Of a DNA stretch of 64,000 nucleotides, positions 1,678-31,536 are shown in pieces. The translations under genes and the position numbers were made by a program. The notes beneath the pieces are model-generated. The model had not been told where the DNA came from, did not search any database, and saw nothing but the letters and a program-made list of their open reading frames with translations. This DNA comes from Dendrolimus kikuchii (Eukaryota; Arthropoda; Insecta; Lepidoptera; Lasiocampidae): assembly GCA_019925095.2 (NCBI GenBank), contig CM034395.1:14291213-14355212 (forward strand). Direction: 5' to 3'. Numbering within the stretch: the first letter of the stretch is position 1; each line of letters begins with the position of its first letter.

Positions 1678-2143
1678 TTTTTTTTTTGTTATTATATATA
1701 TCTCTACGGACTCGAGTTCCGTACCCTTTTTTAATACTTAATTTCTATGAAAAATTTGAGTACACGCTTATTGTTTATTTTTGTTAGTGTATGTGACATT
1801 ATATGTAGTAATTTTTCTGTTTTGGTGTACCTTAAGAATAACTTAATATAATTTATTTAATTTTATTAAACTAACGTTTTAATAACTGAAACTTGATCAC
1901 GGAAGACTAATGTAGATTGTTGTAGCCTACCGCCAACTGTTATTATTTACATGCTGCTTCGCAACATGTTGGCTTGAAGGAAGAAACTCTTGCAAACATG
2001 TAGCAATGTATGTCGCGAAAACTTATATCTATACTTATATATATTGTCGTATTTAGTGCCATGTGTGTTGTTTTTTTCTTTTCTGTGCCTGGGTTATTAA
2101 TTTTTAGGCTCTTTGTGTGTCTTGGTTTGTTTGTGGAGTGTGG
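1678..2143 (-). mobile_element. 3' end of the helicase-bearing LINE family, minus strand
   Basis: Read on the minus strand, this segment matches the 3' untranslated part of the LINE at 5489-7324 (compare about 6960-7310). Shared landmarks are the ACGGACTCGAGTTCCGTAC block, TTGTTTATTTTTGTTAGTG and GTGCCATGTGTGTTG. The poly(T) at 1678-1687 is the poly(A) tail of the minus strand. A possible short target duplication ATTCTA flanks it at 1672-1677 and 2144-2149. Positions about 1905-2030 diverge from the other copy and instead resemble the foldback family near 62800 (CTGCTTCGCAACATGTTGG). No coding sequence remains, so this is a dead 5'-truncated copy. Confidence 0.75.
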
Positions 2144-5344: not shown

Positions 5345-5488
5345 TTATAAAATAATTAAAAATACAATACAGCTTAACTTAAAAATAAACTACAAATTAT
5401 ACTATATTAAAAACTAAAACTAAATAAAAAGGGGATAAATAGCTAAAAATAAAATATTGGTCCCAAACTACTGTCACTTACCGGGAAC
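5345..5488 (-). pseudogene. 3' end of a nuclease-type retroelement, interrupted by a LINE
   Basis: On the minus strand, 5488 down to 5443 encodes the last residues of an ORF ending GPIFYF and a TAG stop. Positions 5442-5345 match its 3' untranslated region. The same codons and UTR lie on the plus strand at about 22601-22700, where the C-terminus reads GPIFYL before TAA. The upstream part of this same copy lies at 7338-7512 on the other side of the inserted helicase LINE. The two parts once formed one continuous fragment, and the GGGAAC at 5483-5488 is one half of the interrupted GGGAACGTTCCC. Confidence 0.8.
5476..5488. repeat. Left target-site duplication, 13 bp
   Basis: The sequence ACTTACCGGGAAC is repeated exactly at 7325-7337. 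The two copies bracket the LINE that begins at 5489. The unoccupied paralogue at 22598-22609 shows GGGAACGTTCCC uninterrupted, which confirms that the second copy arose on insertion. Confidence 0.92.
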
Positions 5489-6763
5489 ATGAAGATAGGC
5501 CAAACCATCCTGGATACCTATAAACTGGGAATTGACAGACTTCTAAAGAACGGACTCGAGGCCGCGGAGGCAGCCGTGTACGACAACGCCACGTCCACTG
5601 TACTAGCGGGAGACATGGCGGGCGAGTATATGGCAGCCTACAACGCAACAGGCGGCTTAGTGACTTTGGATGAGGACAAGACGGAGAGAGGGAGTGAGAA
5701 ACCTTGTTTCAACATTCCCTCTAATGATCCTGTGGTCGTGGTGATGAAGTACACAAGGATTATGCTGGACGACAGGATCTCGGAAAAGGCCAAAACCTTG
5801 ACCGAGATCTCTGCCGGCGGCGAACCCTTCGACAAGTGGACCGTCCCGGAGATCACATGGATCAATGGCGTCCCCGGCTGCGGCAAAACAACAGCGATGC
5901 TCCGTGCCTTCGAGAAAGATGAAGACATGGTCATCACAGCCACAAAAAAATCCGCAGAAGAAATCCGGGAGAAGTTACAGCCCATCCTAGGAGCCGATGC
6001 GAAGGCTAGAGTGCGGACTATGGCATCGTTCATAGTCAACGGTCTAACTTCCAACTTTAGACCCAAACGCCTCATAGTCGATGAAGCACTCATGAGCCAT
6101 TTCGGCTCTATATTCATGGCATCGCGCCTAGCAGGAGCGGCGTACCTCACTCTCATGGGCAACATAAACCAAATGCCCTTCATAGACAGGAACGACTTGT
6201 TCCCCATGCTATATCACCGCCCTACACCCTCGGCGAAAATCACCCGAGAACAGCTCTGTACACACCGAAATCTACTAGACGTAGCATATGCCATGAGTGA
6301 TGTATACTCAGGCATATACTCGTCCAAAAATCAAGCTCGTTCCCTGGAACTCAAACGGTACTCGCGAGGACGCATACCCACAGAATTTGCCAATACTCTT
6401 TATCTAACTCACACGCAGTCAGAGAAAGAGAGCCTAATAAAACTAGGCTGTGGTAAGGGCAAAGGGTCATGCGTTCAAACGATACACGAGGCCCAGGGTC
6501 TTACCTTCGAGACAGTGGTGATCGTGAGGTCCAAATCCAACAAGATCGACCTGTACAAGAGCATCCCTCATGCGGTCGTGGCGATTTCGCGGCACACGGG
6601 TAAATGTATTTACTACACAGCCGTGTGCGAAGAGGACGCTACCGCCACCTTCGTCCTTAAAGCGGAGAAAGCCACAGCCGATGAGATCAGGGATTATAAT
6701 ATAAAAATGGCGATACGCATGAGAGACAAGACGGTGGTCCAACACCTAATGGAGGGCCAATAA
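5489..6763 (+). CDS. Virus-type superfamily 1 helicase domain, C-terminal part of a LINE ORF2
   Basis: The 424-residue frame is uninterrupted. Residues 1-120 are a linker without a recognised domain. Residues 123-380 show the ordered motifs of alphavirus-like/tobamovirus-type SF1 helicases. These are Walker A GVPGCGKTT (127-135), a Ia-like segment near 149-160, Walker B VDEA (197-200), motif III GNINQ (224-228), motif V TIHEAQGLTF (331-340) and motif VI VAISRHTGK (364-372). These enzymes use NTP hydrolysis to unwind RNA or DNA. In a LINE the domain might act on RNA-DNA hybrids during reverse transcription, but that is inference. The motif III residue that is usually D (GDxxQ) is N here. The ATG falls exactly at the insertion junction, so it is probably an internal methionine of a longer ORF2 lost by 5' truncation. 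The frame stays open upstream only to 5453, through unrelated host sequence. A free viral integration is the alternative, but the poly(A), 3' UTR, second copy and duplication favour a LINE. Confidence 0.85.
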   Translation: MKIGQTILDTYKLGIDRLLKNGLEAAEAAVYDNATSTVLAGDMAGEYMAAYNATGGLVTLDEDKTERGSEKPCFNIPSNDPVVVVMKYTRIMLDDRISEKAKTLTEISAGGEPFDKWTVPEITWINGVPGCGKTTAMLRAFEKDEDMVITATKKSAEEIREKLQPILGADAKARVRTMASFIVNGLTSNFRPKRLIVDEALMSHFGSIFMASRLAGAAYLTLMGNINQMPFIDRNDLFPMLYHRPTPSAKITREQLCTHRNLLDVAYAMSDVYSGIYSSKNQARSLELKRYSRGRIPTEFANTLYLTHTQSEKESLIKLGCGKGKGSCVQTIHEAQGLTFETVVIVRSKSNKIDLYKSIPHAVVAISRHTGKCIYYTAVCEEDATATFVLKAEKATADEIRDYNIKMAIRMRDKTVVQHLMEGQ

Positions 6764-7324
6764 TCCCCCTCCTAAACCATCCATCATCATCAACACCAAC
6801 TGAAAATTTTTCATGTCACAACAATTAAACAATAAATTATGACACCACACAAAGTCACAAACACATAACTAACAATAAAACTTATACACATACTCAAACC
6901 AACGCGCACTACCATCGCATTGCATTACACACACACTTCACAAACAAACCAAGAGACACAAAGAGCCTAGAAATTAATAACCCAAGGCACAGAAGAGAAA
7001 AAAACCAACACACATGGCACTAGATAGGACTACATATAAGTATAGATATAAGGCCAACACTGCGCCTGCACTTCCTCACAACACCAGCATGTAACAGATA
7101 CACTCTACATTAGTATAAGTTTAGTATTAAAAATAGGATAAATTAATATAATAAGTTAATCTTAAGGTACACTATAACATATAAATCACTAAATTAATGT
7201 CACACACTAACAAAAATAAACAATAAGCGTGTATGGATTCTAAAATCTTTCATAGAAATTAAGTAGTAAAAAAAGGTACGGAACTCGAGCCCGTAGAGAT
7301 GTTAAGAAAAAAAAAAAAGAAAAA
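6764..7324 (+). other. 3' untranslated region and A-tail of the helicase LINE
   Basis: The region follows the TAA stop. It is AC-rich on the plus strand and contains CCATCATCATCAACACCAAC just after the stop, a GGTACGGAACTCGAGCCCGT block (7275-7294) and a terminal A-run. About 6960-7310 are shared with 1678-2143. No further coding sequence was seen. Confidence 0.8.
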
Positions 7325-7337
7325 ACTTACCGGGAAC
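7325..7337. repeat. Right target-site duplication, 13 bp
   Basis: The sequence is identical to 5476-5488 and directly follows the A-tail of the LINE. It continues into GTTCCC, completing the original target. Confidence 0.92.
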
Positions 7338-7512
7338 GTTCCCAAAAGACTGGCGGAGTTGCCACGTTGTATAGCAACGCCTAATGTTTGAGCAAAATAG
7401 ACCCCATTTTCTGGTCGCGTGTTACATCTACTAAACGTTTGGCGGCGTCACGGTAAAGCTTTAGAGCGTGGGACCGCAGCAATGCCTGTAGCCAGAGACT
7501 TGCTCTCAACGT
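7338..7512 (-). pseudogene. Upstream half of the interrupted nuclease-type retroelement
   Basis: Read on the minus strand this encodes KRLVDVTRDQK, then YFAQTLGVAIQRGNSASLLG, then a short tail. The last segment matches the C-terminus encoded at 9785-10201 (YFAQQISIAIQRGNAASLLG). The two parts are out of frame with each other, so a 1-bp indel lies between them. Before that the match fades into non-coding sequence. It joins 5488 across the LINE insertion. Confidence 0.8.
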
Positions 7513-22490: not shown

Positions 22491-22790
22491 TCACCGAACG
22501 TTTAGTAGACCTCTCACGCGACCAAAAGGCTGGCGTCTATTTTGCTCAAAGGCCAAGTATTGCTTGCTATTCAACGTGGTAACGCCGGCAGCCTTTTGGG
22601 AACGTTCCCGATAAGCGACAGTGGTTTGGGACCAATATTTTATCTATAATTATGCCCTCCTTTTTTATTTAGTTCTAGTTTTTCATTTTAGGTTTATTTT
22701 TCATATTGTAGTTTAGTTTTAGTATTTAGTTGTATTTTTCTATTGAATAAAATATAATAATGTTGATCAATAAATACAAACTTTATCAAA
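22491..22790 (+). pseudogene. 3' end of the nuclease-type retroelement, uninterrupted copy
   Basis: Codons for ERLVDLSRDQKAGVYFAQ are followed by a small indel near 22562. Then come AIQRGNAGSLLGTFPIS and GPIFYL before a TAA stop at about 22650, and about 140 bp of 3' UTR matching 5345-5442 in reverse. This copy keeps GGGAACGTTCCC (22598-22609), the site that the helicase LINE occupies in its paralogue. It is 5'-truncated and frameshifted. Confidence 0.8.
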
Positions 22791-29309: not shown

Positions 29310-29700
29310 AGTAGTGGTAGTTTGTTTTGTAGATTTGGTAGTTTCGGTAGATTTGGTAGTTGTGGTAGTTTTGGTAGTTGTGGTAGTTTTGGTTTGTAGA
29401 TTTGGTAGTTTCGGTAGTTGTGGTAGTTTTGGTAGGTAGTAGTGGTAGTATTGGTAGTTTTGGTAGTTTTGGTAGTTTTGATTGGTAGATTTGGTAATTC
29501 AGCGGCTGGTCACTGGTATTTAAAATTCTATAGTTTTGATAGTTGTGTTAGTTTTGGTAGTTGTGGTAGTTTTGGTAGTTGTGGTAGTTTTGATAGTTGT
29601 GGTAGTTTTGATAGTTGTGGTAGTTTTGGTTGGTCGATTTGGTTTATTCGGTTGTTTTGGTAGTTGCAGTACTTTTGATAGTTGTGGTAGTTTTGGTTGA
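29310..29700. repeat. GGTAGTTTTGGTAGTTGT-type minisatellite
   Basis: Nine-base variants (GGTAGTTTT, GGTAGTTGT, GGTAGATTT, GATAGTTGT) run for nearly 400 bp and often alternate, giving an 18-bp higher-order period. One interruption lies at 29495-29530. In one frame the array reads as a Ser/Cys/Gly/Phe/Asp repeat (SFGSCG), but no start, stop or flanking domain supports a gene. Confidence 0.92.
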
Positions 29701-30921: not shown

Positions 30922-31536
30922 AACCTCGAAGCCAGGGTCCTCGCGTCGCTATACCAGTGGCGCAAGGAGGCCCTGGTCAGGGGCACGAGACCGGCGCCTC
31001 AGGAAACAGAGGCTTGCCGGTCGGAGCTCCGCGACGTCGCCATGGTGGTCTGGGAAGAACGCCTCAGACACCCCAGCGCGGGCCTCGCCACCATTGAAGC
31101 GGTGAGGCCCGTCCTGCTAGACTGGATAAAACGTAGACACGGCACCCTGACGTTTCGGCTGACACAGGTCCTCTCGGGGCATGGCTGCTTCGGGAGGTAC
31201 CTGTGTCGCCTAGGCCGTGAGCCGACGTCAGGGTGCCATCATTGCGACACCGGCGACGAGGATACGGCGCTGCACACACTCCAGGAGTGTTCTGCCTGGA
31301 CAGAGCAGCGCCGAGACCTCGTCGCCGTCACCGGATTTGACCTCTCGCTCCCGGCCGTGGTACGCACCATGGTCGGGAGCTCAACCGGATGGGACGCCGT
31401 CTCCTCCTTCTGCGAGCGCGTTATGCTTGCGAAGGAGGAGGCGGAGCGGGAGCGTGAGCGGACATCTTTGCTCCGCTCCCGCCAAAGGAGGACGCGCCGA
31501 CGCCGGAGGGCGGATTTCGACCTTCGGCCACCGTAA
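30922..31536 (+). pseudogene. C-terminus of an R1-like LINE ORF2
   Basis: An open frame continues from about 30922, upstream of the ATG at 31042, into codons for EARVLASLYQWRKEAL. It carries a CCHC-type knuckle (GCHHCDTGDEDTALHTLQEC) and then W-x-x-QRRDL, a signature of R1-clade LINE C-termini. The protein ends in an Arg-rich tail (RTRRRRR) after KEEAERERE. It is an intact-looking 3' part of about 200 codons with the endonuclease and reverse transcriptase removed by 5' truncation. The last half-kilobase downstream is its GC-rich 3' UTR. It would not encode an active element. Confidence 0.8.

Follow-up and report, generated by a model that had tools for sequence, protein, structure and literature searches.

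Telomere-specific elements TRAS1 and TRAS3 of Bombyx mori are composed of ORF1 and an ORF2 with endonuclease (EN) and reverse transcriptase (RT), lie within (TTAGG)n and are not known to possess a helicase. Helicase-bearing R1/TRAS LINEs of Lepidoptera have been published since 2015 (Lazareva et al. 2015, PMC4686597; Morozov et al. 2017, PMC5563155), and an R1 LINE of the same SF1H-encoding kind is described from Sf-RVN cells (PMC5803895). An earlier note on the DNA examined here had stated that insect R1-clade LINEs with such a domain were already reported, which is in accordance with the available portions of these three papers. The spacer in these elements, according to the accessible part of PMC4686597, is longer than 300 aa and without known relatives. 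PMC6338049, which also describes TRAS1/TRAS3 of Bombyx mori, states in the sections available that SF1H elements are absent from the vicinity of (TTAGG)n and calls their helicase accessory. We examined a stretch of 64,000 nucleotides from the moth Dendrolimus kikuchii, referred to below as the window, which contains a 5'-truncated copy of such a LINE, a member of subfamily A, inside an older interspersed repeat (5489..7324, plus strand).

Results

In the window copy the open frame (5489..6763, plus strand) is 424 aa long and corresponds to the C-terminal end of ORF2; it spans the core of the SF1 helicase and the greater part of the helicase N-terminal domain. The 424-codon SF1 helicase ORF proposed in the earlier note is therefore present: Pfam Viral_helicase1 matches it with E 4.7e-31, and its best PDB sequence match is a tobamovirus replicase helicase (E 6.6e-30). 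The nucleotide-binding motif (Walker A) NGVPGCGKT (5864..5890, plus strand; ORF residues 126-134) is nearly invariant in the 28-row helicase alignment. GNINQ (6158..6172, plus strand), a GDxxQ-type motif, carries the change D225N, private to this copy by comparison with others; the codon is GAC or GAT in four other subfamily-A copies and GAC in the subfamily-B copy L010. The frame is followed by a 3' UTR (6764..7303, plus strand), the later part of which aligns to other genomic copies, and by an A-rich tail (7304..7324, plus strand); both had been recognized before and can be read straight from the sequence.

The frame begins right at the insertion junction. By comparison with copy L002, the ATG of the frame encodes a methionine inside ORF2. 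RT is absent, and so are roughly 36 residues from the N-terminal domain of the helicase. This copy had been called intact, which holds for its reading frame and not for its protein, in which 11 amino acids are not shared by any of the 29 further copies in the comparison. Over 1272 bp the copy has 20 private substitutions (1.6%), of which 11 are replacements and 9 are silent; D225N and P262L, two of the private changes, both fall at columns nearly invariant in the 28-row alignment, the window row included. Taken alone, the private changes do not differ from the neutral expectation (binomial p 0.07), and set against the codons in which subfamilies A and B have fixed differences (44 replacement, 95 silent) they differ weakly (Fisher p 0.047, a comparison of single substitutions in the window with codons between A and B). 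With RT absent and conserved sites changed, the window copy is probably dead. We considered its open frame as evidence for function and rejected it, since the chance of a neutral frame staying without a stop is 0.56, i.e. 56% of neutral cases stay open.

The sequence ACTTACCGGGAAC occurs exactly on both flanks of the element, as the 5' target-site duplication at 5476..5488 and the 3' one at 7325..7337 (both plus strand). In shuffled sequence it had a mean of 0.07 matches at up to one mismatch, and two matches were obtained in none of 100 shuffles. Copy L002 reads ...CTCAACATGAAG at the position of the window's junction, so that AAC, the last 3 nt of the 5' duplication, is common to target and element (3-nt microhomology). 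Because AAC belongs to both, the duplication is 10-13 bp long; of the perfect 13-bp target duplication previously described, the exact repeat on both sides stands and the fixed length does not. When the flanks were joined at one repeat copy they aligned with a minus-strand paralogue at 22494..22686, with 160 of 199 columns identical, a score of 193 and an ungapped insertion point, compared with 77-180 for control joins displaced by 5-60 bp and 93 and 119 for the unjoined left and right junctions, respectively. This paralogue is an unoccupied target, as had been claimed for an empty site at 22598-22609, except that the counterpart of the duplication is shifted by about 6 bp, to 22604..22616 on the minus strand, and is identical to ACTTACCGGGAAC at only 11 of 13 positions.

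The window contains another, older copy of this LINE family at 1679..2142 (minus strand). It consists of a 3' UTR only (73% over 472 columns), has an A-tail and may be flanked by a 6-bp duplication, TAGAAT, read by eye; no helicase match was found in it. Two further features of the window are a 164-aa frame (31042..31536), in which a cysteine/histidine pattern noted by eye resembles the C-terminal ORF2 end of another LINE and which has no Pfam match, and a tandem array with the 9-bp unit GTTTTGGTA (29324..29697).

The D. kikuchii genome contains at least 106 matched helicase stretches (99 of 330 candidates scored), the counts being lower bounds in which certain copies are split into two rows, and a 2033-aa open frame was found in at least 10 rows of the genome search. 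In L031, which is the same locus as L010, this single frame is ORF2 and encodes endonuclease (residues 127-245, Exo_endo_phos_2, E 2.6e-18), RT (549-794, RVT_1, E 5e-36), RNase H (967-1092, RNase_H, E 1e-13) and viral helicase (1731-1983, Viral_helicase1, E 1.8e-33). It is overlapped by an upstream frame which matches no Pfam family and which has, by eye, cysteine-rich, knuckle-like motifs at its end. Full-length matches are 92-95% identical to the window protein in subfamily A and 83-86% in subfamily B; identity varies between 72 and 100% in shorter matches and is just 63-64% in one split match. The long subfamily-A copy L033, whose frame is broken and has one in-frame stop, is 78% identical to L031 over 5175 columns in a single alignment, which starts inside the endonuclease, crosses RT and reaches the helicase. 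RT upstream of the helicase, predicted for longer copies, is thus found in one frame in L031 and by alignment in a member of the window's own subfamily. Because L031 and L033 run from endonuclease and RT into the helicase, the window frame is evidently the remaining end of an ORF2 that came without RT and is now decaying.

The question whether the helicase is under selection had been raised before, and we addressed it with dN/dS by Nei-Gojobori counts, in which dS of 0.7-1.5 brings error and decay in subfamily A pushes the ratios up. Five A copies, each compared with L010 of subfamily B, gave 0.10-0.13 for the helicase (dS 0.78-0.82). Between L033 and L031 the ratio was 0.10 in each of the EN part, RT, the RT C-terminal part and RNase H, 0.16 in the knuckle and linker, 0.19 in the spacer domain, 0.16 in the next linker, 0.15 in the helicase N-terminal domain and 0.13 in the helicase core, the A sequences behind these values being decaying copies and dS reaching 1.4-1.5 in EN and linkers. 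L032, the same locus as L002, gave 0.20 for the spacer, 0.14 for the linker, 0.12 for the helicase N-terminal domain and 0.09 for the core. Variants among the A copies have a dN/dS of 0.44, as expected, because these copies are decaying. Purifying selection on the helicase in lineages that were moving is highly probable from these comparisons, and with a ratio between subfamilies of 0.09-0.13, against 0.10 for RT, the helicase was conserved almost as strictly as RT during the time in which the family was mobile.

Target duplications of 12-16 bp were found in five of 11 truncated copies (L001, L003, L004, L005 and L006), the 16-bp repeat of L006 being situated about 40 bp before the break. No clear duplication was found in the other six truncated copies, and none at all in the longer copies L031, L034 and L035. 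Nine of 25 B copies break off 7-35 bp before the usual 3' end and have no poly(A) tail (L007, L009, L016, L017, L022, L023, L025, L029 and L030; eight of them within GGTACGGAACTTTAGAGTCCGT), and a tenth, L010, has just four A as its tail. Among the 5' truncation points of subfamily A, placed for 10 truncated copies with the two longer ones, L002 and L038, left aside, several lie near one another, at 7353-7354 (L001 and L005), 7211-7214 (L004, L041 and L042) and 7298-7303 (L039 and L040) in the reverse complement of L032, as if reverse transcription had halted at preferred places. The last 750-790 bp of the 3' side of 30 loci contain no TTAGG or CCTAA dimers. An interspersed, GACTGGAACCTGGTCA-like repeat was seen by eye at about 2527-2690 of the window and in the 3' flanks of L006, L019 and L030; beside several LINE copies, it is perhaps a common landing place.

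Twenty-three B loci are 98.7-99.8% identical to L031, and L006 is 97.4% identical. In 19 long B copies four of the first approximately 3000 columns are variable, each in one copy, and upstream of the helicase only three columns vary; since L007-L030 were taken from rows with tied helicase scores, replacement changes were excluded by choice in the helicase and not elsewhere. All 50 remaining variable columns are found in the 3' UTR, most of them in an A-rich stretch. Judging from this near-identity, subfamily B evidently spread very recently. We also asked whether the near-identity of B copies in coding sequence points to selection and rejected this reading, because so few variable columns upstream of the helicase reflect youth.

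An unnamed domain of about 160 aa (L031:6280-6783) is located after the RNase H/knuckle region and before the helicase; it is present in all 52 helicase-bearing and in none of the 68 helicase-less sequences among the 120 RT relatives listed. The domain folds confidently in a relative's model, confidence being low with 28 sequences and higher with 48. No match to it was found in Pfam (best E 0.076 and 0.2, each from one of 13 members) or, by sequence, in PDB (best E 1.2). When a viral origin of this domain was looked for with spacer and helicase together as the query, Foldseek against viral models placed the replicase of Atrato Virga-like virus 1 first (728 columns, 24% identity), an identity which by our estimate could come from the helicase part alone, and the PDB fold matches listed for the combined query are filled by helicases, covering model residues 248-683. 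A scan of IMG/VR for relatives returned eight stretches that fit a pattern, of which none was confirmed.

In the 120-row RT tree the helicase-bearing RTs of 13 named lepidopteran species group together. The first labeling of this tree gave six changes of helicase state, at least five of them forced by well-supported branches. After a relabeling decided by judgement once the tree had been seen (P0062 as helicase-bearing; P0075, P0080 and P0090 unlabeled) two changes were obtained, and with P0105 unlabeled too one change, a single clade of 53 rows then not being rejected (p-AU 0.312). The tree contains no named TRAS, SART or R1 references, and the R1/TRAS assignment rests on the available part of PMC4686597 and on source names ("115 kDa protein in type-1 retrotransposable element").

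Discussion

Target duplication, 3' A-tail, 5' truncation and empty site, the marks of target-primed reverse transcription, are all present in the window copy. By this mechanism, we conclude, a helicase-bearing LINE (described in print as SF1H-TRAS of the R1 clade) left its 5'-truncated copy within an older repeat. The central claim of the earlier note, a retrotransposed LINE copy with an RNA-virus-like helicase, is supported by the duplication, tail and empty site as well as by the ORF2 homology to L031 and L033. That the locus is a 5'-truncated retrotransposed copy of a helicase-bearing LINE we regard as virtually certain; this identity and purifying selection on the helicase, taken jointly, are very likely. 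The helicase is a maintained part of ORF2 in lineages that kept moving, and it may work alongside RT on RNA of the element itself, where it would unwind structure or an RNA:DNA hybrid or strip proteins, rather than travel as an optional passenger. For such a role in retrotransposition itself, as opposed to another role, the chance seems to us just under even.

The closest solved-structure matches of the helicase are viral replicase helicases, and an RNA-virus fragment copied in by the reverse transcriptase of another element would be equally expected to have an A-tail and a duplication. However, more than 100 matched stretches are found in the genome, a 3' UTR is common to the copies, and in L031 and L033 the same frame extends upstream into RNase H, RT and endonuclease; an endogenous viral element recognized by virus-only content, with no LINE sequence, is not what is seen here. 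An endogenised viral fragment is consequently refuted for this LINE family and is extremely improbable as an account of the locus. A domesticated, stand-alone moth helicase gene, for which the 424-aa ORF would be the gene, could be imagined from the open frame of 424 codons with its ATG start and from single-helicase gene models in other moths and butterflies, but that ATG is internal to ORF2, the frame starts only where the insertion does, conserved sites carry replacement changes and the helicase N-terminal domain is incomplete, which makes such a gene very improbable.

More weight has to be given to the possibility that the LINE carries the helicase as an accessory, either a suppressor of silencing or an antiviral factor, which takes no part in retrotransposition itself. 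The text of PMC6338049, as far as available, suggests that the helicase seems to be without an essential retrotransposition function. Constraint near the level of RT and RNase H, and presence of the helicase in 52 of the 120 RT relatives listed, 13 named lepidopteran species included, suggest on the contrary that copies depend on it. Both constraint and wide presence are nevertheless compatible with a suppressor needed by the element itself; an RT-like ratio is silent on the helicase's job, because such a suppressor would give the same ratio. We therefore consider an accessory role a real possibility, somewhat below an even chance. A helicase kept nearly like RT while the family moved favors a role on which the element depends, and because its recent spread left nearly identical copies, the question can be tested in a living species.

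The window copy had also been put forward as a good place to study the capture of the helicase. This finds no support here, because the grouping of helicase-bearing RTs from 13 lepidopteran species indicates a capture far older than this copy, which is a late 5'-truncated reinsertion. It is tempting to think of the capture as a two-part module, helicase with the 160-aa domain, acquired once early in Lepidoptera, now essential to retrotransposition and accompanying departure from the telomere-only life of TRAS, but as a whole this scenario is rather unlikely.

The type of element is already published, and to it the copies in this genome add helicase conservation nearly as strict as that of RT. 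The words "synonymous" and "purifying" do not occur in the available text of PMC5563155 and PMC6338049; our own measurements concern dN/dS, how the spacer domain pairs with the helicase, and target duplications. Neither Dendrolimus nor Lasiocampidae, the family of the host, occurs in the main text of PMC5563155 as available or in the species list given in the accessible part of PMC4686597. Like the SF1H TRAS-type LINEs of many lepidopteran families, which in the published descriptions available to us have an ORF2 in which EN and RT are followed by a spacer exceeding 300 aa and by a virga-like SF1 helicase at the C-terminus, the family described here joins all these parts, and unlike the full elements the window copy is 5'-truncated. 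It differs from the replicase helicases of tobamoviruses and virga-like viruses (e.g. the ToMV helicase, 3vkw) in being joined to a LINE polyprotein and not to methyltransferase and RdRp. With TRAS1 and TRAS3 of Bombyx mori the family shares ORF1 and an EN-RT ORF2; it differs from them in possessing a helicase and in the lack of telomeric dimers in the 3' flanks of the 30 loci. These flanks agree with the available text of PMC6338049 on the absence of a TTAGG vicinity; the dN/dS ratios speak against a helicase with which the element could dispense.
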